Part shown: positions 1-20,501 of the stretch, piece after piece
Layout of the letters: each line of letters starts with the position of its first letter
How positions within the stretch are numbered: the stretch's first letter is position 1
Assembly (NCBI RefSeq): GCF_034366625.1
Contig: NZ_JAXMIH010000023.1
Span: 372,001-436,000, forward strand
Direction of reading: 5' to 3'
Origin: Prosthecobacter sp.
GTDB lineage: Bacteria > Verrucomicrobiota > Verrucomicrobiia > Verrucomicrobiales > Verrucomicrobiaceae
Length of the DNA: 64,000 nt
Translations under genes and position numbers: made by a program
Notes under the pieces: model-generated
Database searches by the model: none
What the model was told of the DNA's origin: nothing
The model's input: the letters and a program-made list of their open reading frames with translations, nothing else

Positions 1-380
1 CATCAAAGCTTCGATGTAATAGGGCTTTCCAGCCTCCAGCGTGATCTTGACCGACTTCTGCTCTGAATACTTCGTCCACTCCAGCGATCCGGTCCATACC
101 AGCACGCGGGCGATGAGCGCGGCGTTGGCGGTTGTCTCGTCCGTGCTGAGGAAAAGCTGTGTCTCGTCATCACCGGACACCCAGAAGGTGTACTCACCGC
201 TGACGGGAGGATAAATCCAGCCGCGCATGCGCTGCCCCATGTTGTCCGCCCAATCGACCGGGGCGGTGAAGTTGGTGCGATAGTCGTAACCCGTGGGGGT
301 GTTGGGGTAATTGCCATTGCTGGTCAGATTGACAACGCTGCTGCCACTGATGCCGGTCCAGTACTCGCGCAGAATGGTGC
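1..380 (-). other. PA14 domain in the giant protein (cut by the window edge)
   Basis: Translation gives [20 protein letters not shown] followed by LFLSTD and, near the edge, [15 protein letters not shown]. This is the usual PA14 pattern, a beta-barrel found in secreted glycosidases and adhesins that often binds carbohydrate. The domain continues past position 1. Confidence 0.85.
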
Positions 381-3300
381 CGGTGTTCATCGGGGAGATC
401 AACCGGGCCGCTTCCAAACGCTCGCCGCCGCTGCCGAGGGTGGCGTTGTTGAGCACCCCATCGTTGTTGAAGTCGATCCAGGCATGCAGCCAGGCGTTGG
501 CACCGGAATTGTTCTGTACTGTGAGGGGAAGAGTGGCGCTGGAGCCGGGATCAATGCTGGCAGGCACGACCACACCGTCTTCGTCATCGAGGCCGGTGGT
601 GTCATCTCCCATGGCCGTGGCATTCGTGGTGGCGGCAAATTCAGTGTCCACGGTGGCTCCAATTAGCAGACTTGCGTTCCGCGTGCTGCTGGCGGCGGCC
701 AGGTTTGAATGGTCGCCGAAGTCCGTCGTCGGGGCGGCGATGGCCACGGCGTAGTCTTCAATTTCACCGGCTAGGGGGTTGGTGCCGGTGGGACCAAGGC
801 CGCTGGGCGCGGAAAGGCGGAAGCGCAGGCCGAGATTTGTGCCGGTGACCGTCGTGGCGGGCACTGTGACAGTCAGATTGGTGACGCCGTCGGTTGTGCC
901 GGTGGGGACAATGATGTTCGTGGCCACCTGCTCGCCGCTGTCGGTCAGAACGCCGTTGTTATTGAAGTCGATCCATGCGTTGAGGAAGCCATTGGCACCG
1001 GTTTCATTGGTCATTGTGACCGGGATCGTCACCGTCTGGCCGGCGATCATGGAGGGTACCGCCACACCGTCCTCGTCATCCACGCCCGCAGTGTCGTCAC
1101 CGGTGGCGGTGGCGTTGCGGATGGAGACGAATTCAGGGTCGAGCAACGTACCTATGTGCAGAGCGGGGTTGACCCCTTGTGAAGCGTCGGCAAAGCCGCT
1201 GAAGTCGCCAAAATCCGTCGTCGGCGCGAGGATGGTGACGAGGTGATCCTCCACCTCGCCGTTGCCGCTGCTGCCAGACACGCCCGGGCTGGTGGTGCTG
1301 GTGAAGCGGAAGCGCGCGCCGAGATTCACACCGGTCAGCGATGCGGCGGGGACGGTGAAGTTCAGGTTCTGCGTGACGTTGTTCGTACCCGAGACGATCA
1401 GCACGTTGGTGGCGATCTGCTCGCCCGCATCGGCGATGCTGCCGTTGTTGTTAAAGTCGATCCAGGCGTTCAAGTAGGCATTCGTGCCGGTCACGTTGGT
1501 CACCTGCACCGGGATGGAGGCCGGAGCGCCTGCGGTCATGGCAGGGAAGACCACGCCGTCCTCGTCATCTTGCGCGATGGTGTCATCCCCGCTGGCGGCG
1601 GCGTTGATGGTGGCGGTGTACTCGGTGTCAATCAATGTACCGAGGCGCAGTCCAGATGCCGCCGTGCTGCTGGCGCTGCTGAAGCTGGCAAAGTCGCCGA
1701 AATCCGTCGTCGGGGCGGCGATGTTGATGACATAGTCCTCCACTTCACCCACGCCGCCCGCGCTGGTCGAGCCAGGTGAGAGGTCATTGGAGATACGCAC
1801 GCGCACAGCGAGGTTTGTTCCGGTGACGGCGGTGGGCGGCACCGTGAGATTGATGCTGCGCGAGGCATTGCTGGTGCCGGTGGTGATCGAGCCATTGTTG
1901 GCCACCTGCTCGCCGCTGTCGTTGAAGACGCCGTTGTTATTGAAATCGATCCAGGCGTTCAGATAGGCCGTGGAGCCGGTGTTGTTGGTCACCACCGTGG
2001 TAATCGTCGCCGGCGCGCCGGCGGTCATCGACGGCAGCGTGACGCCGTCCTCGTCATCCACGCCGTTGGTGTCATCGCCGGTGGCGGAGGCATTGCGGGT
2101 GGAGGCGTATTCCGTGTCCACCAACGTGCCGAGGCGCAGGTTGGTGCTGGCGGTGTTGGAGACTTCCGGTGCGCCGCTGAAATCGCCAAAGTCGGTCAGA
2201 GGTGCCAGAATGACGATCGGATGATCTTCCACTTCCCCCTGGCCTGCCTGGCCGGTAGGGCCTGGATTTTGGATGTCTGTGAGCCGGAACCGAGTGCCCA
2301 GGCTGGTGGCGGCGGTGACGGCATTTGTCGGGATGTTGAAATTGAGGTTCAGCGTGTCGTTCGTAGTTCCGTCGGACACGATGACATTGGTGGCGACCTG
2401 TTCGCCCGCGTCGGTGAGCACGCCGTTGTTGTTGAAGTCAATCCAGGCGTTGAGATAGGCTTCTGCGCCCGATGTGTTTGACACCGTCACCGGCAGTGTC
2501 ACCGGCTGGCCGGCGGTGACGGAGGGGAAGGACAATCCATCTTCGTCATCACTGCCGGTGATGTCATCACCATCGGCATTGGCGGTCTTGCTGGGCGAAC
2601 CTTCCGCGTCCACCAGCGCTCCGAGGCGGAGGTTGGTGCTGATCGTGCTGCTGGCATTTGCCAGATCGAGTTCATCGCCGAAATCAGTCGTGGGTATGAC
2701 AATCGTCGCGGTGTGGTCCTCGACTTCACCATTCCCATCCAGGCCATCAACTCCAGGTGTGGTGACGCTGGTCAGACGCACGCGAATGCCCGCCGTTCCA
2801 AGGCTCGCAGCAACAGGCGCGGTGAAATTAATGGCACTGCTGGCATTCGAGGTGCCGGTGACGATGGCGGTGTTCACCGCAACCTGTTCACCAGCATCCG
2901 TGAGCACGCCATTGCGGTTGAAGTCGATCCAGGCGTTCAAGTAAGCGGTGCTGCCGCTGGTGTTGGTGAGATTGACCGTCAGACTGCCTGCGGCCCCCTG
3001 GGCGATACTGGCAGGGATAGTTACACCGTCCTCGTCATCGCTGCCGTTCAAATCGTCCGTTGTGGCATTGGCATTCGTGTCGAGGCCACCTTCCGAATCC
3101 GTCAGGCTGCCGATGCGCAGCGTGTTGTTGGTCTTGCTGCTGGCGCTGGGGAATGTGGCAAGATCGCCGAAGTCTGTGTTGGCCACGATGGTCGTCGTAT
3201 AGTCCTCCACTTCGCCACTTCCATCCTGACCATCCGGTCCGGGACTGCTCGTGCTGGTCAGGCGCACACGCACGCCTGCCGTGCCGACCTTCACAATGGC

Positions 3301-6300
3301 AGGCACAGTGAAGCCAACCGTGCGGTTCGAGTTTGAAGTGCCGGAGGCGACCGTCGTGTTGCTGGCGACCTGCTCGCCTGCGTCGGTGAGCACGCCGTTG
3401 CCGTTGAAGTCGATCCAGGCGTTCAGATAAGCGGTGGAGCCGATGGTGTTGGTGACGTTCACCGTCAGGCTTGTGGCTGTGCCTTGGGTGATGGACGCAG
3501 GCACGGTCACGCCGTCCTCGTCATCGCTGCCGTTGGTGTCGTCACCTGTCGCGGCGGCATTCGTCGCGGCCTGGCCTTCCACATCCACCAAGGCACCGAT
3601 GCGCAACCGGTTGTTTGCGACGCTGGTGGCGGACGAAAAGAGATTAAAGTCAGCGTAGTCCAAGGTCGGCGCGGCGATGGAAACGACATAGTCCTCTACC
3701 TCACCCATGCCGTTTGTACCCGTCGGGCCAGGAGTGGCCGTGCTGGTCAGGCGGAAACGCGCTCCGCGCCCTCCGCCCACCGAGGCACTCGTGGGAACGT
3801 CGAAGGTGACGTTGATCGTGGCTCCAGTCGTTCCATCCGACACGAGCACGTTGGTGGCGATCTGTTCGCCGACGTCGGAAGCACTGCCGTTGTTGTTGTA
3901 GTCGATCCACGCATTCAGATAGGCGGCGGCTCCGGTGTTGTTGGTCACATTGACCGGAACTGTGATCAGGCCACCTGCGACGATCGATGCGGGCATCGTC
4001 ACGCCGTCTTCATCATCGACCCCGGTGGTATCGTCGCCAGTGGCGGCGCTGTTCGTGGTTTGGGCGCCTTCCAAATCGGTGAGCGCGCCTATTTTAAGCG
4101 CGGAGTTGGCGGTGCTGCTGACGGAGGCAAAACCGCTGAAGTCACCGAAGTCCTGCGTGGGTGCCAGGAAGGCAACCACATAATCTTCCGTCTCGCCCTT
4201 GGCGCCGCTGCTCACCGGTGTGGTGGCGGCATTGTCAGTGAAACGGAAGCGCACGCCGCGCTGCGGGCCGACACTGGCATTCATGGGGACGGCAAAGTTG
4301 ATGTTGACGGTCTGCAAGGACGCGCTGGCGGGGACGGCGGCGTTGTAGATGCGCTCGCCACCGCTGGCGACATCGGTGTTGTTGAACGTGCCGTCATTAT
4401 TGAGGTCGATCCACGCCTGAAGGTAACGGTTTGCCGTGTTAAGATTGAACACGCTGACCGGAATGACCACGTTCGTTCCATGTGTCATGCTGGCGGGCAT
4501 GATCACGCCGTCCTCGTCATTGCCATCGGCGGTCGCGTCGGCGTCGGGAGTGACGCTTTCCTCCTCATCCACGATCTCACCGAGACGGATGTTGGTGGTC
4601 AGGATGGTGCTGGCCGTGGTGGTGGCGGCACCGCTGCCATTCCAGTCGCCGAAGTCGAGCGGGATGGGGATGACATCGAGGAAGTTGTTGTTCGGATAAC
4701 TGATGAGCATCGTGACATTCACCGGGATGCGGTTGTCATTGGCACCGCCGGTGTCCGCGACGTTCACAAAAGTCGGGAGATTGTCCTGCACGATGACATA
4801 ATCACCCGCACCGAGGTTGAGGAACTCGTAGTAGCCCGTTTCGTCGGTGGTGGTGAAGGCTTGAACGCTGCCATCCGCAGGATCACCGTCGGCATCTGGA
4901 TCGCTGTAGAGAGTGATGGTCACGTTTTCCAAGGCGGTGTCGCCGCCGCCGAAGCCGACGGTGCCGATGTCCTCGTAAACCGAGCCGGAAATCGTGGCGG
5001 CGAGCAGTTGGAGGCTGGCGGAACTGCTGGAGGAAGGCACGGGATCGCCATTGGCATCAAACGCGTTGGTGACTGCCACGGTGTTGCTGGCCGGGTTGGC
5101 ATTGCCCTTGGCACGAAGAGTGACGGTGACTGTGAAGGTTTCGCCGACGGCGAGGCTGCCAACATCGGTGACGTCATTCCAAACAAGGCTGCCAGCACCG
5201 AAGGCGTCGGGCGTGATGGTGGCAAAAACGTAATCGAAATTGGCATCGCTGAAGGTGTCTTCCAGCGGCAGGGTCGTGAGCGTCGTGGTGCCGGTGTTTT
5301 GCAGCGTGAGGTTGAACACGACGTCGTCACCCTTGCTCGCCGGGCCGGGGTTGGGGCTGACGAGCGTCTTGGTCACCGTCACGGCCGGGCGTGTCACGAT
5401 GACGGGGACGCTGGAGGACGCGGTAGGGCCGCCGCTGGTGGTGACGTTCACCGTATTGAGGGCGGGATTCGCAGCGGCAAGGCCGGTGAAGTTCACGATC
5501 AAGTCCACGCTCTGTCCTGAGTTCAGCGGTCCCACATTGGTCCAGGTCAGGCTGCCACTGGCCACGGTGGTGGGAGTCGCGGAAGCGGAGACATAGCTCA
5601 GGCTGGCGGCGGGGAAAGTGTCCACCACTTGAACGGTGTTGAGCGTTGTGTTGCCCGTGTTCGTCACACGGATGCGATACTGGGCTGCCTCACCCACGAT
5701 GATCTGGCCGTCGGCGGGCGAGAGCAGCGTTTGGATCACCGAAACATCAGGCATGATGGCGGGAACGGTGGCGGTTGCGTTGCTCGTGTCGGTTGAATCT
5801 GTGGGGTCCACATAAGACACGGTCAAAACAGCACCTGCCGGAACATAAAGAGTTCCATTGTTACTGCTGCCTGCCACCGTGGAACTGGCGGGGATGCTGT
5901 AAACGAAGACGCCGGTGTCGATGCCCGTCTCGGTCAGCGTGACCTGCTCGCTGTCACCGCTGCTGCTGGTGATGGTGGCGAGGAGAGTCTCGGCGACAGT
6001 AATGTTGATGTTCTGGTCGATGTCCGTCACACGCACCGCGACCTGTTCGTTGAGAGCAAAGGTCGTCGTTTCGGTGCCATTCGAACCCGTGGTGAAGACC
6101 GCGAAGCCTAGCGTTCCGAGATCGAGCGAACTCAGTGTGACGATGGCCGATTTCGACGAGGTGATGGTGTTTTCATAGCCTTCCTTGGCGGTGGCGGAGA
6201 TGGTGACGGGGCCTTCGAGGCTGCCAGCAGTCCAGACGTATTGATAGGTCTTCGTCGCCGCAGTGGTTTCGACCACATTGGCCACGGTCAGCGTGGCGGA

Positions 6301-9300
6301 AACGTCGCTGGCACTGCCAGGCGCGTCGATGGTGAAAGGAACGGTCGTGATGTCATAGGCACCGAAGGGATCGCCGACGGTGACGCGCACATACACTTTC
6401 TCGCCGAGATTTGGCGCGGTGGTGGCAGTGCCACCGGGATACGGGGCGTCATAAACAGCGATGGAGTCAGTGTGGATGACGGTGTTTGTCGGCAGGCTGA
6501 CTTTGGAAGGATAAGTACTGCTGTCGTAGAGCACGGAGAAGTCAGCCTCGCCCGCGTTTGCGATGGTGAGGCTGAGAGACTGGCCGGAGACGAGATTCAC
6601 GGCACTGGCGAGCACGGTGTTCCAGTCGAGACGGTAGATCGAAGTGCCGGTGGTGGCCGGTTTGATCGAAACCGCCCCCAGTGCCCAGGAATCAGGCGAG
6701 GTCGTCCAGGACATCGACACCGAGGAGGCCCCGGCCTTGGTGCTCGCAGCTCCAGTGATGCCGGAGTCGCTATCGGCTTGGGTCAGTTTCATGCGCTGCG
6801 TCTGTCCACTGCCGGGCGCTGTGATCGTATCAGCATCATCCAGCGCCAGAACATCAAACACCAACTCTCCTGATGCGGAGACGAGTGTGAGCGAAGGGGC
6901 GGGTGCTGAGTCGCCCTGATCCGACTGGGCGGAAGCAAAGGTGCCCAGGGGTGTGCTTTGATGCACACCGCTGAACGTGGAGGCCACGGTCACCACCGCG
7001 TCGTCACAGGCCTGATTGAGCGTGACCACGACATTGGCTGTTCCGCTGGGAGGATTGACGAGCCGCCAGATTTCCATGCGGGCCTCGCCTTCCGCAGATT
7101 GTTGAGATCCAACTTTCACCAGGGACTGGCCGGAGTAGGTGACACTGTTCACCAAGGTGCTTTGGATGTCCGACTCAATGGCGACACCGACGAGCAGCAG
7201 CCGGTTGCTTCCCGTTCCGGTGGTGTGAGCCCAGGTGTGAGAGGAAAAAGTCGGGCTTGTGCCAGTTCCGGTGCCTGCGCGCTTCTGTGATGTCGAAGTG
7301 GCGTCCAGGGTCACCGGCTGCCCTCCGCTGCCGCTCACCAGCGTCGCGTTGGGGCTGTCCAATGAGGCTATGGTGACGCCGCCATTTTTGAGCGTGGCGG
7401 TGATGGCCGGGGTGGCCGGGAGCACCGCAGGCGGAAACTCCGCGTAGGCGGTGACGCCCAGATTGCCACCGGCCGGCATGCTGAAGTTTTCGGCAAACGC
7501 GGGTGTCTGTGTCCAGGTGGCGCCACTGCCCGCGGCATCGGCCGCAGGCTTGATCGACACGGCGGCCATCACCGCGTCCTCGTAGTCGAGAATGTCATAG
7601 CGCAGGGACACGGATGCGGCGCCAGGCTTGGTGCTGGAAGCGCCGCTCACATAATTGAAGCCGCTGTTGTTCCAGAGCTGCGTCTGCCCGGATGCGGAGG
7701 AAACGCCTTGGTTGACGGATGAATACTCGTCCACGGCGACGCTGGAATAAACAAGTTCGTCCGTGGCCGAGGCGAAGGTGCCGGAGACGAAGTAATCACT
7801 ACCGTTGGCGGCATAATTGGAAGACGAGCCCAACGGCGTGGTTTGATGGACGCCGGTGAAGGTGGTCGCAGAGGCGATGACGGATGACGCCGTGGAACCG
7901 ATGGACACAACCACATTGGCAGCGCTCGAGGACGGATTGATCAGGCGGTAGATGTAAGTGCGGACTGCGGCACCGCTGTAAGCGGCAGCCACCTGGGTCA
8001 TGGCGGTGCCACCAAAGGTCACACCCGTCACGGTACCGGGAGCAGGGTCGGCATCGTTCGCGGTGGTGTTGCCCACGGAAATGGCCACCAGCAGCAGGCG
8101 GTTGTCACCACTGCCCGGCGTGTGGGAGAAACTGAGCGTGCCTCCGGAGGCGACGGATCCGCTGGAACCCGAGGTGGTCGCGGCGGCGACAATGGCGGAA
8201 ACGCCTCCTGGGGCCAAAGTGGCTGTTTCCGACGTGGTGCTGTCACCCGTGACCACAGGATCAATGCGGTCGAGATCGCCGGTCATGTCGCCGTTGGCAC
8301 CATCGGCGTCGAGGTAGAGTTGCTTGAACAGGCTCGGTGAGACGATCGTGGTGGTGTCCATGCCCGTCTCCCCGGTCACTCCGTTCGTGTAAGTTCCCGT
8401 GACGACGACGCCAACCTGAACGTTGAGTGTGCCGTCGGCTGTTCCCAGGCCGGCGGTCGTGGAAGTTGGCAGCGGCGTTGTGTTGCGGAAGATGCCGGTG
8501 TTCGGGCCGGTTTCAGTCAGCGTGATCGTCTCCACGTCCCCTGTGTTCGTGTTGGTAATATGGGCTGTGATAGTCTCGACCGCCGCCGTGGCGGTGTTGG
8601 CATCGTTGTCGTTGACAGTGGCGTGGATGCCGTCACCGGGCTGGTAGGAAACGGAGGTGCCGACATTGTTGGTGAAGTCGAGGGTGCAGACAGAGGAGGA
8701 GCCTCCTCCAGGAATCACTTCGACGACATCGGTCGCGGCCAGGCCAGGATAACCAGCAGCACTGACGCTGTTGCTGATGGTGCCCGACGCTGTGATTGTG
8801 GCGCGGAATTTGATGACGGTGCTTTCCTTCGGATTGAGGATCGGAATCACCAGGCCGCTTTCATCCAGCGGGAACGGTGTGGTTCCACTCTCTGTGACGG
8901 CCATGCCATCGCGGATCGTGGAATACCGCACGTACGTCAGCTTGGCGTTTGGCAGCGTGTCCACGATGCTGATCGCCGTGAGGGCGAAGAGGGTTTTGTT
9001 CTCGAGCGTGACCGTGTATTCGAGAACGTCGCCGATGCTGTATCCGGCCGGTGCGGTGTCCAGCACGATGTTCGACACCTTGGAGAGGAGAGGCGCAGGA
9101 TAGTTTGGCAGAGTGTTGCCAAGATCGAGGAAGGGGCGTGCCGGACCCGCGACAGCGGGATCCTGACCCCAGGCACCAATGATCTGCGTGCCGTCCAGCG
9201 TGTACAAGCGGGTGCCGGACTGGTCTTTGTCCGATTCATAGATGCGATTGACGGACAGCAGGCTGGCGTTCAACGCGAGGTCATATTTTTGGCCTGAGGG

Positions 9301-12300
9301 ATCGGTCAAAGGGCCATTGCGGTCACCATTGTAGTCCACATAGATGGTGGTGGACTTGGTGGGCGTGACCCAGATCGGACTGCCATTCTGACTGCCGTCA
9401 TCGCTGCCAGCTCCCCAGCCGACGACGACCTCGGTGCTCAAGAAATCCTTGGGCACCAGAGCATAAGCCCAGTCATGCACATTGTTTTGGTTGGCCTCCG
9501 CGCCCACGGTGCCGAGACCCCAGAAGGGTTTGCTGCCGACGCTGGTGAAACGTGCTCCGGAGTTCTGCGGCATGAGGTAACGGTAGGTGCTCTTTGCAGG
9601 AATCGAGAAGGAGCCGGAACCCGTCTGGGTCGCATAGTTGACCGTGATGGCAGCCGTGTCCGGATTGTAGAGGAAAACGTGCGTGTCATCTCCGTCAGCG
9701 GCGGTGCCGACAGGCGCATAGTACTCGCTCGACCATTTCTCGCGTGGCGGCACGTTGGCGCCACGGGTTTCGAAGTTGGCATTGATGTCACCAAAGAACT
9801 CGATGACCTGCGCGGGCTTGGAAGTGGTGATGGCGGCCCCTTTCTTGATGCCGGAGTTGATCAGATAGGATTCGCCTTTGTTGAGGGTCACGGTGGTTTC
9901 CACGGTGCCGTTGGCGTCCTTGTCGATTTGCACCGTGGTGCCATTCTCCGCCGCCATGATGTACGCAGCGCAGTGCTCGAACATGGAACTGCTCAGTGGC
10001 GACGGATAGATGATGTCTTCACCCACGGGAAGCACGAAGGTTTTGCCCCAGTCATTCAAAGCACGCACTTCGACCGAGTTGGCGAGAAGTGGCCCGGGAT
10101 CCGTGAACCAGGCGGCCCGGGTCATCACAATGCCATAAGTCGAGCCAAGGCGGTCACGTCCGTCATACAGAATGGCGGATGCATTACGCGGCAACGGCAC
10201 GTTGTTGCGCATGGTGATGACGGAACCGGCAGTGAACGAGGCCGGATCGTTCGCATAGCCTGGAGGTTTGCCGTTGGCGTTATTGCCGTCTCCCCAGATC
10301 AAGGTGCCCGGCTGCACTGGGTTTTTGAGATCCATCTCATAACCATCCTCCCAGTGGTCGAACACGATCTTGGTGGCTGCAATGGGCACGGTGACAGTGA
10401 TGACGGAGTCCGCGATCGCATTCACCTTGGGAGCCAGCACGAGGTAGTCTTCCCGGATCTGGGCTTCCGGCTGTGGCACAAACCATTCCTGAACGATCGG
10501 CAGTCCCAGATTGCCGGTGGCCGGCGGGCTGGCGATGGTGACGGCGTAGTCTTCGGTTTCACCATTCGCACCACTGCTGGTGGGTGTGGTGGCCGCGTTG
10601 TCGGTGAAACGGAAACGCGCACCGCGCTGCGTGCCAGCACTTGCACCCGCAGGCACGGTGAGAATGACGTTGAGCGTCTGCGAGGATGCGCTGGCAGGAA
10701 CCGCCGCATTGTAAATGCGCTCGCCACCGCTGGCGACATCCGTGTTGTTGAACGTGCCGTCATTGTTGAAGTCGATCCATCCCTGGAGGTAGCGGCCAGC
10801 CGCGTTGTTGTTGAACACGTTCACCAGGATGGTCACGTTGGCTCCCTGCGTGAGGTAGGCAGGAATGGCCACGCCGTCCTCGTCATCCGTGCCAGCGAGG
10901 TCGTCCGTGGTTGCGGCAGCGTTCGTGGTGGTGGCCGCCTCGGCATCGACCGTGGCACCGAGACGAATGTTGGTGTTGCGAATCGTGCTGGCTGAGGCCG
11001 TGGCGGCACCGGAGCCGTTCCAGTCACCGAACTCAATGTTCACCGGTGCGATCGTATAGCTGCGTGTGCCGGTGCATCCATAGTTGTCCGTGGCACGAAC
11101 CGTGAACGTGGCTGCTGTTCCGTTGACAGGCGTGCCGGTGATCGCACCGGTACTGGTGTTCAAGCTCAGTCCAGCAGGCAGCGCACCGCTTGTTACCGCG
11201 AAAGTGTAAGGCATGGTGCCAGTGCCGCCGCTCAAGGTCTGGTTGTAAGCAAAGCCCGCCACGCCATCAGGCAGTGTCGCGGGATTCACCGTGATGGTCG
11301 GGCAGGCGGGGGTGATGGTGTATTCCCGCGTGCCCTGGCAGCCATTCGCGTCCACGGCGCGGATGGTGAACGTGGCGCTCGTGGTGCTGTTCGGCGTGCC
11401 ACTGATCACGCCCGTGCTGGGGTTCAAGGTGGCCCAGGAAGGTAATGCACCGCTGGTCACCGCGAAGGTATAAGGCGCGGCACCGCCGCTGCCGCTCATT
11501 GTCTGTGGGTAGCTGGTGCCAACCACCGCACTCGCTGCGGAGGCTGGATTCACCGTGATGACAGGGCAGACTTGCACGACGTAGGACCGGCTGAACTGAC
11601 AGCCGTAGGTGTCGGTGGCCCGAATCGTGACGCTGACACCTGCGCCGTTGCTGGTGGTGGGAGTGCCGCTGAGCACGCCGCCAGTGCTCAAGGACAAGCC
11701 CGTCGGCAGCGTGCCTGAAGTCACTGTATAAGTGTAGGGGGCTGTGCCACCAGAAGCCGTGAGTGTCTGGCTGTAGGCGCTGCCCATGTAGGCATCTGGA
11801 ACCGTGGTGGGTGTCAGACTGATCGTGGGACAGACCGGGGTGACGGTATAAGCACGCGAACCGGTGCAGCCATTCGCCCCCGTCGCAGTGACGGTGAAAG
11901 ATGCCGCCGCGCTGCTGGTAGGAGTGCCGGAAAGAACACCGGTGTTCTCATCAAGACTCAGCCCTGCCGGCAAAGCGCCGGAGGTCACGTCATAGGTGAA
12001 TGTGGTGGTGGAGCCGGAGGCGGTGAGCGACTGCGAATACGCCGTGCCTACGCCCGGGACCGCCGGAGTCGTGGGACTGATCGTGACGGTGGGGCAGGCC
12101 AGTGTCATGACATAGTCCTCGACCTCACCACTGCCATCTGCACCATCGGGGCCTGGGGTGCTGGTGGAGGTTAAACGCACGCGCACCCCCGCCACACCTG
12201 GAGTGGCTGTGGCTGGCACCGTAAAGTTCACGGTGCGGTTCGAGTTCGAGGTTCCTGAGGCCACCGTGGTATTCGTGGCGATCTGCTCGCCACTGTCCGT

Positions 12301-13674
12301 CAGCACGCCGTTGCCATTGAAGTCGATCCACGCGTTCAAATAGGTCGTGGAGCCAATCGTGTTGGTGACGTTCACCGTCAGGCTGCCCGCCACTCCCAGT
12401 ACCACGCTGGCCGGAACGGTCACACCATTTTCATCATCTAGGTTGGTGGTGTCATCGCCCGTGGCCGTGGCATTGGTCGTGGCGGTGATCTCGGCATCCG
12501 TGGTGGAACCGATTTTCAATGTCGAGTTTACCGTGCTGCTGGCGCTGGGGAAAGACGCATGGTCACCGAAATCGGCTGTTCCCACCACGATCGCGTAATC
12601 TTCGACCTCACCCTTGAGTGTCGATGCCCCGCTGAAGATGGGAGCCGTGCTGCTTTCACTGATGCGTATGCGCAGATACTTGGTTCCAGCCGTGATGCCC
12701 GCAGGCGGTGTGAGTGTGAAATTGTAAGTGCCGGAAATGTTGACCGTCTGGGCCGACAGGGTTTCGTTCGTGTCCACCACATCGTTGTCGCCATTCCAGT
12801 CGGCAAACACATTGATGCGCGCGGTGCTTCCTGAAAGCGAGGCTGCGTTCACCGTGACAGGGATGGCCAGCATCGTCGATGTGCCCGCCGTCAGCGCAGG
12901 CATGGTGAGGTCTTCATCATCCACACCCGTTGTGTCATCCGCCGTTGCAGTGCCTGTACTCGGATTGCTGGCCTCCGTGTCGGTGGCGTTCGTGCCGATA
13001 CGGATGTTGGAGTTGGCCACCTGCGTGGCAGAGGCAAACAACCCGTAGTCACCAAAATCCGTTTCAGGAATGATGGTGAGCAGGTGATCCTCCACCTCGC
13101 CATTCCCATCGGCGCCGTCGGTTCCGGGACTGCTGACGCTCGTCAGACGCACACGCACACCCACTGCTCCCAGTGTGGCATTGGACGGCACGGTGAAATT
13201 GAGCGTGCGGTTCGAGTTCGATGTGCCGGAGGCGACGGTGACGTTCGTTGCGATCTGTGACCCCGCGCTGGTGATGTTGCCATTGTTGTTCCAGTCGATC
13301 CAGACATTGAGATAAGTGGTGGAGCCCGTGGTGTTGGTCACATTCACCACCAGACTGCCGGAGACACCTCGAGCGATGGTCACAGGCACCGTGACTCCGT
13401 CTTCGTCATCACTGCCGGTCAGGTCATCGCCAGTCGCCGTCGCATTGGTCGTGGCGGCGGATTCCTTGTCCGTGGTGGCACCGATCTTCAGGGTCGTCAC
13501 CACCGTGCTGCTGGCGCTTGAAAACAAACTGAAGTCACCAAAGTCCGAGGTCTGAGCCTGTGCCACCCCACTGGTCATGAGCACGGCCGCCAGCGCGCCG
13601 CACAACGAAGCGACAAAGCGCCCCGCTGGCAGGCGGCACGCTGGGGCGTCGGTTCGTGATGTGTTCTCCCTCAT
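1..13674 (-). CDS. Giant secreted modular surface protein (GEVED/Ig/DUF11/SdrD_B/PA14), C-terminus beyond window
   Basis: One reading frame runs from ATG at 13674 to the window edge, at least 4558 codons with no stop seen. Residues 1-41 form a long signal peptide ending near VAQAQ. Order of modules: three GEVED modules (about 39-520), four putative-Ig He_PIG repeats (523-877), a fourth GEVED module (877-1045), a region resembling IgGFc-binding N-terminal domains (1049-1519), a DUF11-like module, a duplicated module with [14 protein letters not shown]-type motifs (1812-2350), two DUF11-like modules, an SdrD_B-like domain (2895-2992), eight more GEVED modules (3009-4312), one truncated GEVED module and a PA14 domain. 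It starts 9 bp after the PEP-CTERM gene stop, so the two are probably cotranscribed. The role is inferred: cell-surface adhesin or matrix protein, PA14 suggesting carbohydrate binding. No anchoring signal is visible because the C-terminus is missing. The frame was confirmed at both ends and several interior points. Confidence 0.93.
430..4650 (-). repeat. Tandem array of eight GEVED modules plus one truncated module
   Basis: GEVED(Y/H)-type motifs occur at about 752, 1243, 1733, 2221, 2714, 3200, 3692 and 4182, a period of 486-493 bp (about 163 residues). Each module opens with DFGD, carries TGDDTxGxDDEDGV, then [12 protein letters not shown] and ends with GEVEDY or a variant. DNA is also similar between copies: an 18-20 bp core around gtcgatccaggcgttca recurs in most modules. 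The last copy (735-430) loses its end and passes into the PA14 domain. Confidence 0.92.
11045..12108 (-). repeat. Four tandem putative-Ig (He_PIG) repeats in the giant protein
   Basis: Four modules of about 260 bp each follow the pattern CPxIxxxP...Y.QTLxASGGxxPYTYxVTSGxLPxGLSL..TGxxSGTP...FTVxAxDxxGC. The ISGTP-type motifs sit near 11930, 11670, 11400 and 11130. Each module begins with Cys-Pro and ends with Gly-Cys, so disulfides within or between modules are possible. They separate GEVED module 3 from module 4. Confidence 0.85.
12110..13560 (-). repeat. N-terminal triplet of GEVED modules in the giant protein
   Basis: Three modules follow the signal peptide, ending in GEVEDH or GEVEDY motifs at about 13083, 12596 and 12115. 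Spacing (about 485 bp) matches the array at 430-4650. The first and third modules are closest to those in the C-terminal array at protein level (NRTxx[20 protein letters not shown]). Confidence 0.88.
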
Positions 13675-13683
13675 GGGGTGCTC

Positions 13684-14385
13684 TCAGGACATGGTCAGGC
13701 GTGTCAGGCGTCGGGCTCGGCGTGTCAGGTGCGCAGCTGCGGCTGCGAACAGCAGGAAGGCAGAGCCGGGTTCCGGCACGACGGCGGTCTGCAGACTAAA
13801 AGTCCCTGGATTAACCGAGAAGGTTCCGTCGCCCTGCATGTCGTTCACTCCGCCGATGATGGGGGTGTCCGCAGTGATAAGATCCCAGTTGTAAGAGCCC
13901 GAGTCATCAGCGGGATCGGGGAAGCGCCAGATGTTGGCTGTGTTGCTGCCGTCCGTCACCAGCGCCCATTCACTGCTGGGCACGATGCTCTTGGAATTGT
14001 ACACCCACAGGTAGGCCACCTCATCTTGGGCAAAAACATCGGCAGGATTCGCATCAGGTGAGTCCGAGCCGCCTGCGAGATTGTGGTTCACCGTGCCCAC
14101 GAAAAATTGCTCCGCCGCATTCCAGCCATTCGCATCCGGGTCAAACGCACGGTCAAACACCTTCCAGTTCGCCTCCCACTGATCGACGTTTTGATAGGTC
14201 GGCACGAAACTGCCAAACGAGCCGATTTCGAAGGAATAGCTCGTGTCCAGCGGCTGGCCGTTGCTGTCGAACAGCAGGTCGTTGAACTGGCTGCCCCAGA
14301 AGATCGTGCTGGCATGCGCGCCATGCATCCAGGCCAGCGCTAGCACGAGGCAGAGGAACCTTGGGATGGAGGAGTGTGTTTTCAT
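13684..14385 (-). CDS. PEP-CTERM sorting domain protein
   Basis: The 233-residue product has an N-terminal signal peptide (cleavage near HGAHA, residue 25) and a C-terminal tripartite PEP-CTERM tag: VPEPGS, a hydrophobic stretch rich in Ala/Leu/Phe, then the basic tail TRRARRLTR. Such tags are processed by exosortase (EpsH family), which is not in this window. The mature part (residues 26-200) is acidic and Trp/Asp-rich and I do not recognise a catalytic domain. It is the first gene of a probable operon with the giant surface protein 9 bp downstream, and the promoter at 14489-14517 serves both. It may be a surface or extracellular-matrix partner of the giant protein; that role is inference. 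Confidence 0.93.
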   Translation of the reverse strand: MKTHSSIPRFLCLVLALAWMHGAHASTIFWGSQFNDLLFDSNGQPLDTSYSFEIGSFGSFVPTYQNVDQWEANWKVFDRAFDPDANGWNAAEQFFVGTVNHNLAGGSDSPDANPADVFAQDEVAYLWVYNSKSIVPSSEWALVTDGSNTANIWRFPDPADDSGSYNWDLITADTPIIGGVNDMQGDGTFSVNPGTFSLQTAVVPEPGSAFLLFAAAAAHLTRRARRLTRLTMS

Positions 14386-16878: not shown

Positions 16879-17586
16879 TCAGGTCGTTCTGCGGCCTGCC
16901 TCGCGCTGGGTCACCCACTCGACCGCGGCGCGCACAAGCTGGGGGGCGGTGGACAGCCCGAGCTTGGTTTTGATGTGAGCACGGTGCGCCTCAATGGTTT
17001 TGACACTCACATGGAGGTCGTGCGCGATCATGCTGGTGCCCCGGCCCTGGCCGAGCAGTTCGAAGATTTCCAGTTCGCGGTCACTGAGTTGTTCGATGGA
17101 ACTCGTGTTCTTGTCGCGCTGGCCCGACGCAAAGGCGTTCAGCATCAGGAAGTTGGCTGTGGAGCTGAGGTGCAGTTCCCCGCGCAGCACCTGCCTGATG
17201 GCGGTCACGACTTGATCAGGCGGGGCTTGTTTCATCAAATAGCCGCGTGCTCCGGCACGCAGGGCGCGTTCGGCATACAGGGATTCGTCATGCATGGACA
17301 ACACCAGCACTGGCAGGTGTGGATACATGGCCTTGAGGGATTTCACCAACTCGATGCCATTCACGTCCTTCAAAGAAATGTCTGTGATCACGAGGTCGGG
17401 GGCGAGGCGTTCCGCCAGTTGCATGGCCTGGGCGGCGGTTTCCGCCTCGCCACAAATGACAAAATCTGGCTCATGCTCGATGAGCATGGCGATGCCCCTG
17501 CGAAAAATGGGATGGTCATCGACGATGAGAAGGCGCTGCTGGCAGCCCGCATGATCCAGTTGCTTCTGGTTGGGAATGGTTTTCAT
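16879..17586 (-). CDS. NarL/FixJ-family response regulator
   Basis: Residues 18-135 form a receiver domain with the acidic pair in LLIVDDHPIF, the phospho-acceptor Asp in LVITDISLKDVNG and the Lys in GYLMKQAP. Residues 165-225 form a LuxR-type HTH (LSDRELEIFELLGQGRGTS, VSVKTIEAHRAHIKTKLG). The start overlaps the stop of the upstream sensor kinase by 4 nt (ATGA), so the two are translationally coupled and the kinase is its cognate partner. DNA targets are unknown. Confidence 0.95.
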   Translation of the reverse strand: MKTIPNQKQLDHAGCQQRLLIVDDHPIFRRGIAMLIEHEPDFVICGEAETAAQAMQLAERLAPDLVITDISLKDVNGIELVKSLKAMYPHLPVLVLSMHDESLYAERALRAGARGYLMKQAPPDQVVTAIRQVLRGELHLSSTANFLMLNAFASGQRDKNTSSIEQLSDRELEIFELLGQGRGTSMIAHDLHVSVKTIEAHRAHIKTKLGLSTAPQLVRAAVEWVTQREAGRRTT

Positions 17587-20501
17587 CGTTTTCCCTGCTC
17601 CCGTGCAAGAGTCTGTGGTTGATATGGGTCGGCGTCAGGCATGCGCAGAGAGCACGTCATCCGGGTTCCCCGGAGTTTACGCCGCTGGATGGAAAAATTC
17701 CCCCCGATCACGTCAGCACGATACCGCATCAACCGCAGCCCCATACCATTGCCTGTTTGAACCGGATCCGCAAGCCCATGGCCGTCGTCCGCGACGCTCA
17801 AGGTAAGCAGGTTCTGCCACAGTCTGAGACTCAGGGTGATGGTGCGCGCCCTGGCGTGCTTCAAGGCATTGGCCACCGCCTCTTGCGCGATGCGATACAG
17901 GTGCAGAGCCGTCATGTTGTCAGCGATGGGAACCATGCGCTCGCAGCGCAGCCTGCAGGACACTTCACCATTGCTCTGCGCGGCAAGCTCACGCAGGGCG
18001 GACACCAGGCCCTCGGCATCCATGACAACGGGGTGCAGTCCTCGGGCAATGCCGCGTGCCTGCTCCACGGATTGATGAATCAAGTCCGCCAGACGCGCCG
18101 CTTTGGCGGTTGGCTCGGCGAGGTTCCGCTCCTCCAGTGTTTTCATCAGTGATCGGGCCATGAATGCGAGACCAGAGAGCGACTGGCAAAGGCCGTCGTG
18201 CAAATCCTGGCCGAGTCTTCGCTGCTCCTGCTCGGAGATGTCGAGCAGTGCGTTTTCGAGCCTGGTCCGCTCATCCATCTGAGCCAGCAGTTCGGAGGTG
18301 CGCTCCGCCACGCGCTGTTCCAGCTCCGCCTTGGCGTGTTCCAGCCTTTGCAGCGCCTGTCTGCGCTCGGTGATGTCCGTGGCCACACCCAGCACCTTGT
18401 CGCAAGTTCCGTCATCATTGAACAACGGCACCTTGCCCGTACTGAACCAGCGCACCTGCCCGTCTGCCTGGGTGATCTCCTCTTCGGGAGTCCGCAGGGC
18501 CTTTCCACTCGACATGATTTCATGATCGATTTTCTGAAAGTGGGCGATCTGCTCGGGGGTGCGGTGGAAGCTGGCATCGGTCTTGCCCGTGAGATTTTCC
18601 ACCGTGGTGCCACAACTGCGGGCGAGGGCTTCATTGCCCAGGAGGAAACGTCCCTCCCGGTCCTTCACAAAGATCATGCTCGGAGTTGCATCGATCACCT
18701 GGCGCAGGAAGGCGCGTTCGCGCTGCAGCTCGTTCTCGATCATCCGGCGCTCGGTGATGTCGGTGATCGAGGCCAGCCAGCCCGTGACTCCGCCCAGTGC
18801 ATCCGTGTCAGGTACATAGACCACATGCACGGTGCGTCGGCCAGACTGCGGATACGGAATCTCCGCCTCGTATTCAACACGTCTTCCCTGCAGCACCTGC
18901 TCGATGTGCGGTCGGATGAGCTCGAACGCCGCGCTGCCGAGCACTTCAATGATTGGCCTGCCAATGATCTCCTCGGGTTCCAGGCGGAGCATGTTAGCGC
19001 AGGCGCGGTTGGCGAACGTGTAGGTCAGGTTGCGGCTGCACTGGGTCAGCATCACGGGGGTGTTCTGCGTGATCAGCCACAGTTGCGCCTCCTTGGCCCG
19101 CACAGCCGCCTCGGCGATCTTGCGGTCGGTGATGTCCACGCAACTGCCGATATAGCCGGTGAATTCCTGCGCAGAACCATGGAGAGGGATGCCTTTGTCG
19201 AGCAACCAGCGGTACTCGCCATCGTGACGGCGCAGCCGGTAGGACATCTCGAAAGGCACACGTGCATCGAAGGCGGTCGTATAGATCGTGAGGCAGCGGT
19301 CCAGATCATCGGGATGCACGTTCTCAGCCCAGCCGTTGCCGAGTTCCAGCTCCATCGTCCGGCCCACAAACTCCAGCCAGGGCTTGTTAAACCACGTGCA
19401 GAGCTTTGTCGTGTCACTCACCCAGACCAGCACCGGCGCACAGTCCATGATCACGCGGAAACGTTGCTCACTCGCCGCCAGCGCCTCCTTGGCGCGGATC
19501 CGATCGGTGATGTCCCGCAGAATGACAGTGAAGAGCTGGTGGCCTGCGATCTCGGTTTTAGAAATGGACGCTTCGATGGGAAACTCCTCGCCATCGGCAC
19601 GCCGGCCGCTGATCGCGCCCAGGCTGCCCATCGCACGGCTGGTTTCACCCGTCCGGCCGAAGCGCTTGATGTGCTGCTCATGCCGCTGGCGGAATTGTTG
19701 CGGGATGAAGAGTCCGATGTCGGTGCCGACCGCCTTCTCCGCCGGGCAGTGAAACATCCTTTCCGCCGCCTTGTTGAACAGCAGGATGCGCTGACCGGCA
19801 TCTACAGTGATGATGGCATCCATCGCGGAGGCGACGATGCCCGCCAGCCGTTCCTCGCTTTCGCGCACGGCCTTCTCCGCCTGCTTGCGCTCGGTGAGAT
19901 CAATGATCGCCGTGAGAAAACGCCGCGCCTTCTCAGAGCCTTTTGGGATGGAGATGATCTGCACCTGTCTGACGGTCTGCATGCCGTGACAGGCAAGGTG
20001 CAGGTCCGTGATCACGTTGGAACCGGAAGATTGGCAGGACTCGAGATGTTTCTGAAACAAGGCACGATCGTCCTTGTCATTCAGGAACTGCGAAAATGGC
20101 TGGCGAGCAGCCTCCGGGCGGGCATAGCCCAGAAGGATGCTGCCCGTGATGTTGATCTGCATGATCCGTCCCCGCGTGTCCAGGGTCATGTAGCCGAGGG
20201 GGGCCAGATCATAGAGCGCGGCGTAGCTTTGGAGACCCTCCTCAATTTCTGTCTGGGCGCGCAGCAACGCCTCGTTTCGCAGCTCAAGCTGGTTGCGGAT
20301 ATGCTGCAATGCCTTGTTTTGCGAACGCAATTTCGACTGCAACTGGCGTTTCAGAGTCGGTGTGGCGGCTGCGGATTTTTTGTGCCGTTTCTTCGATGTC
20401 TTCTTGTCGGGGGCTGACATTGCCGAACGGCTCTGTGCCGCTTTCACCCTCTTGGCTTTGGGGCCGGTCGTAGATGGTCGCCTGGAAGATGCGCGAGGCA
20501 T
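17583..20501 (-). CDS. Five-PAS sensor histidine kinase, HisKA_3 (NarX/UhpB) type
   Basis: The 972-residue product has a Lys-rich N-terminus, a coiled coil (residues 45-90), five PAS/PAC modules (about 90-210, 215-340, 345-465, 470-590, 600-725), each ending in a DITERK-like PAC motif, and a second coiled coil. Next come the HisKA_3 phospho-acceptor motif QDLHDGLCQSLSGLAF and an HATPase_c domain (ALKHARA, ADDGHGL, GNGMGLRLMRYRA). No transmembrane segment is visible, so it probably senses a cytoplasmic signal. It lies third or fourth in an operon beginning with the DUF2934 gene and is coupled by a 4-nt overlap to the response regulator. Confidence 0.95.
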   Translation of the reverse strand: MPRASSRRPSTTGPKAKRVKAAQSRSAMSAPDKKTSKKRHKKSAAATPTLKRQLQSKLRSQNKALQHIRNQLELRNEALLRAQTEIEEGLQSYAALYDLAPLGYMTLDTRGRIMQINITGSILLGYARPEAARQPFSQFLNDKDDRALFQKHLESCQSSGSNVITDLHLACHGMQTVRQVQIISIPKGSEKARRFLTAIIDLTERKQAEKAVRESEERLAGIVASAMDAIITVDAGQRILLFNKAAERMFHCPAEKAVGTDIGLFIPQQFRQRHEQHIKRFGRTGETSRAMGSLGAISGRRADGEEFPIEASISKTEIAGHQLFTVILRDITDRIRAKEALAASEQRFRVIMDCAPVLVWVSDTTKLCTWFNKPWLEFVGRTMELELGNGWAENVHPDDLDRCLTIYTTAFDARVPFEMSYRLRRHDGEYRWLLDKGIPLHGSAQEFTGYIGSCVDITDRKIAEAAVRAKEAQLWLITQNTPVMLTQCSRNLTYTFANRACANMLRLEPEEIIGRPIIEVLGSAAFELIRPHIEQVLQGRRVEYEAEIPYPQSGRRTVHVVYVPDTDALGGVTGWLASITDITERRMIENELQRERAFLRQVIDATPSMIFVKDREGRFLLGNEALARSCGTTVENLTGKTDASFHRTPEQIAHFQKIDHEIMSSGKALRTPEEEITQADGQVRWFSTGKVPLFNDDGTCDKVLGVATDITERRQALQRLEHAKAELEQRVAERTSELLAQMDERTRLENALLDISEQEQRRLGQDLHDGLCQSLSGLAFMARSLMKTLEERNLAEPTAKAARLADLIHQSVEQARGIARGLHPVVMDAEGLVSALRELAAQSNGEVSCRLRCERMVPIADNMTALHLYRIAQEAVANALKHARARTITLSLRLWQNLLTLSVADDGHGLADPVQTGNGMGLRLMRYRADVIGGNFSIQRRKLRGTRMTCSLRMPDADPYQPQTLAREQGKR

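Follow-up and report, generated by a model that had tools for sequence, protein, structure and literature searches.

The 64,000-nucleotide stretch of the Prosthecobacter sp. genome analysed here (the window; contig NZ_JAXMIH010000023.1, positions 372,001 to 436,000) carries at its left end most of a giant gene whose product contains numerous GEVED modules and is probably a fibrillar surface protein. Throughout, G000 denotes the source genome and other G numbers the comparison genomes, while C stands for a contig and L for an extracted locus sequence. On the minus strand, the frame is free of stops from an ATG at window position 13674 (G000:C23:385674) down to position 1, and in the assembled genome it ends at a stop codon at G000:C23:366442-366444, 5.6 kb past the window edge. 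The gene thus measures about 19 kb, without a single ambiguous base (N) in its coding stretch, and its product comprises 6410 amino acids (653 kDa, pI 4.05). The first 4558 codons lie in the window (1..13674, minus strand), and the remaining 1852 residues are encoded at G000:C23:366442-372000. The frame is not a product of chance, because G036 carries a colinear open reading frame of 6433 codons with 71-90% identity in each segment past the signal peptide. The giant open reading frame is genuine and complete in this genome. A preliminary description, made from the window, had reported a single 13.7-kb frame of at least 4558 codons with the N-terminus in view and the C-terminus outside, and following it past position 1 has borne this out.

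Domain architecture of the giant protein

All features described in this section lie on the minus strand. The protein starts with a putative Sec-type signal peptide (residues 1-41; 13552..13674), read by eye from the sequence. From the N- to the C-terminus, it continues with three GEVED modules, four He_PIG domains, a further GEVED module, an IgGFc-like domain, a DUF11-like domain, two domains of about 230 residues, DUF11, SdrD_B, 13 GEVED modules, four He_PIG domains, two SdrD_B domains and a C-terminal domain of about 400 residues. In total, there are 17 GEVED modules, 16 of them intact and one split, and eight He_PIG domains. Together with DUF11 and SdrD_B, these are domains of the stalk type, which may form a rigid rod.

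GEVED modules 1-3 (12094..13548) were delimited by Pfam and a module profile, and the four He_PIG domains that follow (11035..12093; Pfam) are immunoglobulin-like with about two cysteines each. Module 4 (10510..11034) was placed by the module profile and adjoins the IgGFc_binding-like domain (9085..10515). The latter (PF17517) was unlisted in the whole-protein scan at E 0.01, scored above the cut-off as an isolated segment (E 1.2e-8) and had no match in the PDB at E 1; its 90% identity to G036 is the highest of the segments compared. The two copies of the 230-residue domain (6625..8244) were recognised by eye and have no Pfam match over the cut-off. They are followed by DUF11 repeats (5005..5754; Pfam) and an SdrD_B-like domain (4729..4983) that stays below the Pfam cut-off (E 1.4e-4; 22.5 bits compared with 29.7). 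The module profile then places GEVED modules 5-12, the first eight of the 13-module terminal array (727..4659), and the N-terminal part of module 13 (400..726), which is split by a PA14 domain (1..399). This PA14 domain is cut by the window edge and complete at residues 4426-4592.

In the window part of the protein, Pfam lists 12 GEVED stretches (E 1.4e-162), four He_PIG, three DUF11, one PA14 and one SdrD_B; the portion outside adds five GEVED, four He_PIG and two SdrD_B stretches. PA14 scores E 2.7e-6 when cut by the window edge and E 1e-9 when whole (38.8 bits against a cut-off of 24). The profile scans therefore agree with the preliminary description on at least 12 complete GEVED modules and a PA14 domain in the window, and on a mosaic in which GEVED blocks are combined with Ig-like, IgGFc-binding-like, DUF11-like and SdrD_B-like modules. 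Its view that the protein ends in PA14 was mistaken, as this domain is nested in the 13th GEVED module and 1852 residues follow past the window edge.

At about 163 residues, the GEVED module is twice as long as the 78 positions of the Pfam model. Invariant acidic residues are numerous among the aligned modules of the window, and the loop DFNNNGxxxDxGEQ presumably provides calcium sites, judging by resemblance.

Age and order of the GEVED array

To place the array among its relatives, we drew on comparisons between species. GEVED was detected in 50 of the 115 genomes searched at E 0.001, 48 of them above the cut-off, and the IgGFc-like segment in 17 of the 115, with G000 included in both counts. 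In the closest relative, G036, 17 GEVED modules occupy corresponding places, and each segment past the signal peptide aligns along its length. G004, in which the gene is spread over two contigs, shows an identical domain order, but its first GEVED block counts five modules, two above the three of G000 and G036. The terminal block comprises 13 modules in three of 14 genomes, 10 in nine, and 12 and 9 in the other two; one of the blocks of 10, in G044, is a longer block interrupted by a truncated module.

The preliminary description had regarded mosaic shuffling and DNA-level similarity between modules as signs of ongoing recombination and copy-number change. We compared 192 GEVED modules of 15 sequences from 14 genomes, excluding matches shorter than 140 profile positions, split halves among them. 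For 189 of these modules, the nearest neighbour by protein identity belongs to another genome. All 16 intact modules of G000 find their best DNA match in the same-numbered module of G036 (73-93% amino acid identity), while the best paralogous module within G000 reaches a DNA identity of at most 73%.

Module order was assessed with an index counted from the end of the terminal block, using 14 frames in which split halves were joined and the two blocks of G004 merged. For the last ten modules of G000, the nearest match lies at the same index in 98 of 130 cases across 13 other genomes, whereas 500 label shuffles averaged 12.75 and never exceeded 25. Over all genome pairs, the indices agree in 1147 of 1807 matches; as the genomes are related to one another, these counts are not independent. 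G044 scores none out of ten, where a truncated module breaks the block and moves the count by two. After a two-module offset, nine of its ten modules agree with G000, the odd one standing opposite the PA14-bearing module. G026 stays a poor match (3/10).

At four-fold degenerate third positions, paralogous modules within the giant agree at 2374 of 5549 sites (42.8%), compared with 39.2% expected from codon usage, whereas G000 and G036 agree at 815 of 1310 (62.2%). The closeness of the paralogs to the codon-usage expectation indicates that the modules resemble one another in DNA mainly because their protein sequence is conserved and not through recent copying, contrary to how the similarity had been read. 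Because the paralogs are near synonymous saturation, their order is kept and their nearest neighbours lie in other genomes, the GEVED repeats must be old. The comparison of sequences thus points to old modules and to an array order fixed at the species level across most of the genomes compared.

Local copying is apparent in the He_PIG domains of other genomes, whereas the giant of G000 gives no sign of it. He_PIG numbers range from 5 to 39 per protein among the genomes compared, and the nearest neighbour lies in the same protein for 42 of 263 domains overall (G031 15/20, G024 12/30, G047 10/39, G022 4/27, G044 1/11), compared with none of the eight in G000. Of the predicted copy-number change, the differences in module number between species are real, in the first block, in the terminal block (9-13) and in He_PIG, while recent copying within this protein was not seen. 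Giant bacterial genes have reportedly been called strain-specific by an earlier survey (PMC11573180); the gene described here, in contrast, keeps its colinearity from one species to another, and most genomes compared share the order of its array.

Split modules, C-terminal domain and upstream gene

Read at the sequence level, the PA14 domain sits inside the 13th GEVED module, with profile positions 1-96 before it and 113-163 after it. It splits the module at position -5, the fifth from the array end, in five genomes (G000, G036, G004, G017 and G031). A survey of the available frames found 367 intact GEVED modules and seven splits, of which five are caused by PA14, one by CBM96 and one by an unassigned insert; partial matches lacking a second half were few (G020, G044, G055 and G056). 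The CBM96 domain (PF24517, E 2e-19) lies inside the module at position -7 of G004 (L048:13712-14290, G004:C212), and its insertion point is near the end of the GEVED profile, unlike that of PA14. The unassigned insert consists of 161 residues in a GEVED module of another giant, in G055 (L144:457-999, G055:C1), and has no Pfam match at E 1.

The PA14 domain is 85% identical to that of G036 and 87% to that of G004, while the halves of the host module reach 73/71% and 70/66%. This better conservation, together with a second carbohydrate-type insert in G004, suggests that binding is under selection. Among the comparisons listed, the host modules of the five PA14 domains are alike at 61-72%, whereas intact modules at the same place in other genomes show at most 55% identity to that of G000. 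In a tree of the other array modules, the PA14 carriers form one group (G000, G036, G004 and G031) plus G017, and intact modules occupy position -5 in G018, G024 and the G001 group. Position -5 has therefore held both kinds of module, by loss, gain or exchange, with at least two changes needed.

The end of the protein is shared with other giants. A search with the last 458 residues returned 13 matching places in G000 with E values no higher than 1, three of them weak (E 0.01 to 0.13), and each match lies within 80 codons of the stop of its reading frame, one of them extending across it. The long form of the C-terminal domain occurs four times in G000, in frames of 6413, 11247, 3076 and 2475 codons. 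Among named genomes, 45 loci carry the domain, all titled Verrucomicrobia of some rank (two of them Akkermansia muciniphila). It stands at the end of the reading frame, at most 61 codons from the stop, in 43 of the 43 loci with a visible stop, and in 27 of the 45 the frame stays open upstream for 3333 codons or more, which is as far as the retrieved flank reaches. Among 288 genomes drawn from across the phylum, 58 matched at 1e-10, many by one half alone.

The second half of the domain appears to be a far relative of TIGR02597, which it matches weakly (E 0.0081; 15.1 bits compared with a curated cut-off of 50). The ends of two other G000 giants match this family at 7.0e-11 and 7.7e-9, also below the cut-off. 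In contrast to the full-scoring family member of G000, a separate 447-codon frame at C15, the giant fuses its TIGR02597-like half behind a 'LEYALG' domain. No mention of TIGR02597 was found in the literature searched, from which subscription journals were mostly absent. The G036 copy of the C-terminal domain (L081; 83% identical to that of G000 over 390 residues) gave a good model, with a predicted local distance difference test (pLDDT) score of 88.8, and had no PDB match at E 1e-3. A likeness of model residues 196-271 to the lambda tail-tip protein VIA (Z 8.2, 2.5 Å, 72 residues) is middling, and we take it neither as a relationship nor as a new fold. Given its place at the end of the reading frame, the C-terminal domain is a candidate surface anchor or retention element.

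A short form, consisting of the 'LEYALG' motif and about 100 residues, was found at the end of nine other reading frames of G000 (L072-L080), three of them weak, and may be a domain that commonly ends exported proteins. A second, larger giant of G000 comprises an 11,247-codon open frame (G000:C24:131446-165186; L126-L128) with many SdrD_B and He_PIG domains, as well as DUF11, Kelch, PA14 and Laminin_G_3, and ends in the long form of the C-terminal domain as well. At least 12 other genomes have frames of 10,000 to 12,556 codons with a match to this domain (G057:C63, G001:C28 and G005:C21, for example). The G020 homologue (G020:C140, L132) is in pieces of 958, 3084 and 556 codons, which may be due to assembly error or decay.

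Only 9 nucleotides before the ATG of the giant lies a minus-strand gene for a PEP-CTERM protein of 233 residues (13684..14385), identified by TIGR02595 (18.0 bits; cut-off 16). Of 17 other loci, 12 contain a homologue, in all 12 on the strand of the longest frame of the locus, and in 11 of the 12 within about 300 nucleotides of it. The PEPGS end is kept in 11 of the 12 homologues, the G044 copy being cut short. G000 also has three exosortase matches (PF09721) over the cut-off.

Proposed function and alternative explanations

The preliminary description held that no function is known for such arrays. This was too pessimistic, as the giant has the domain set of fibrillar adhesins, and this set combined with the nested PA14 domain leads us to read it as a fibre that is exported and binds glycans through a side domain. 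We consider it probable, though by no means assured, that the giant is a fibrillar-adhesin-like surface protein. In such a mechanism, the putative signal peptide would direct the export of one chain of several dozen beta-rich domains. The acidic GEVED modules, probably stiffened by calcium, would form an old scaffold of fixed order, and the module fifth from the array end would be opened to hold PA14 and project it sideways. The projected domain may then bind a glycan of other cells, of algae or of the matrix, while the C-terminal domain common to other giants of the family would keep the giant at the cell surface or dock it there. The product of the small PEP-CTERM gene immediately upstream would act as a partner of the giant.

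This reading agrees with several features of known adhesins. In fibrillar adhesins, PA14 ranks with the most frequent adhesive domains; a surface anchor is usual but not obligatory, and nearly half of the surveyed fibrillar adhesin-like proteins are without a recognised one (PMC8286594). The giant resembles the proteins of that survey in its single long chain, its stalk-type domains and an adhesive PA14 domain over the Pfam cut-off. It differs from them in its size of about 6400 residues, in an adhesive domain that is internal and nested, in a C-terminal domain that occurs in Verrucomicrobia, and in the PEP-CTERM gene that often lies next to the giant gene. The main text of the survey does not contain the stem 'Verrucomicrob' (PMC8286594). 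For adhesins without a known anchor, this C-terminal domain is a concrete anchor candidate. GEVED itself was defined in fibrillar adhesins, and CshA-type adhesins can combine it with SdrD_B-like or DUF11 stalks (PMC10952558). The giant shares these domains and differs by having 17 GEVED modules, with 13 in a single array; no LPxTG anchor was found in its last 50 residues.

Closest in design are the RTX adhesins, in which ligand-binding domains are projected from split domains (AhLap, PMC12077191). In these, a carbohydrate-binding domain, of PA14 type in an ice-binding RTX adhesin, emerges from a split beta-sandwich (PMC12077191), a design that the giant would share. The giant carries a putative signal peptide, recognised by eye, in place of a type I signal, and its split domain is GEVED. 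No RTX repeat family matched the whole protein at E 0.01 (Pfam) or its last 409 residues at E 10, and the LapG protease (PF06035) had no match in G000 (96.67% complete), while a Caulobacter control was positive. We therefore rejected an RTX/LapA-type adhesin. A search for the type IX secretion system (SprA_N) gave no match, with silent controls, and no conclusion was drawn from it. To our knowledge, the projection of a carbohydrate-binding domain from a split domain is known only from RTX adhesins. A literature search on this design likewise returned RTX adhesins only, and neither a fixed GEVED-array order nor a unit of PEP-CTERM gene and giant was found, in searches that left subscription journals largely outside. 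The split-domain design of RTX adhesins would thus recur here on another scaffold, GEVED.

Several observations weigh against the reading as a glycan-binding surface fibre. The adhesive-type domain is internal and not at a terminus, and it resembles solved structures weakly (at best 4.2e-5, for the PA14-domain protein 6qdi). Its conservation is equalled by the IgGFc-like segment (90/86% to G036/G004), GEVED module 4 (87/87%) and the DUF11 pair (88/86%). PA14 is missing at position -5 in the relatives of the G001 group, G018 and G024, so that not every member needs a lectin at this place. The model of a GEVED pair is of low confidence (pLDDT 65); its fold matches are generic beta-sandwiches, the best being a GH2 enzyme (Z 10.2, 2.4 Å, 103 residues), and among PDB sequences the pair has no relative (best E 0.31). 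The PEP-CTERM homologue of G031 lies 5.3 kb away from the longest frame, and no such gene was found upstream in 5 of the 17 loci (G010, G026, G020, where the contig ends, G042 and G041). Finally, no known anchor domain was matched in the Pfam or NCBIfam scans. The anchor or sorting signal that the preliminary description had suggested looking for past the window therefore exists as a candidate, in the form of the common C-terminal domain, and not as a recognised family.

Among the alternatives, the fibre itself may be the function, as in a structural sheath, a surface-layer-like protein or a matrix protein in which PA14 merely cross-links to the cell's own polysaccharide. The very long, acidic, beta-rich chain and the presence of at least two giants per genome that share this C-terminal domain are in line with this, as is the link of PEP-CTERM systems to exopolysaccharide (PMC1569441). 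The fold of the GEVED pair also matches the biofilm scaffold RbmA, but as a generic match (Z 8.2, root-mean-square deviation 14.3 Å), and the conservation of PA14 over its host module together with the CBM96 insert in G004 suggests selection on binding. On balance, we consider a purely structural role rather unlikely, though credible. A role in predation or cell-wall attack, the reading put forward for giant proteins in Omnitrophota and further lineages of the Planctomycetes-Verrucomicrobia-Chlamydiae (PVC) bacteria (PMC12057145), is improbable. A lytic role has no domain support here: the Pfam and NCBIfam scans gave no catalytic family except for an NCBIfam thermolysin model, which is aligned by its last ~100 positions alone, its GEVED tail.

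Least probable of all is an array that is still reshuffled by recombination, as the preliminary description proposed, and that would thereby give rise to phase or antigenic variation. The range of He_PIG counts across relatives, the local He_PIG copies of G031, G024 and G047, and the two extra modules in the first block of G004 would fit such a process. For the giant itself, the proposal is contradicted by the constant GEVED order, the near synonymous saturation, the nearest neighbours in other genomes and the colinearity with G036, on which grounds we rejected recombination in its GEVED array.

Returning to the fibrillar adhesin, a wider scheme can be drawn up that is speculative and rather unlikely. 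Verrucomicrobiaceae might possess a two-gene display system consisting of an exosortase-sorted PEP-CTERM protein and a giant fibre, with the fused 'LEYALG + TIGR02597-like' domain as a new surface-retention signal. The GEVED array, whose length and order hardly vary, might then offer exchangeable 'socket' modules, either intact or split by PA14 or CBM96, that change what the cell binds.

Two further genes lie near the giant. An OmpA-family gene lies 58 nucleotides downstream of the stop of the giant (L009:13727-14383); it had no match in 14 relative sequences searched, whose downstream cover is variable, and was not used in the interpretation. On the other side, the window encodes a histidine kinase of 972 residues with at least five PAS domains (17583-20501), and similar stretches occur near the homologous locus in five relatives.

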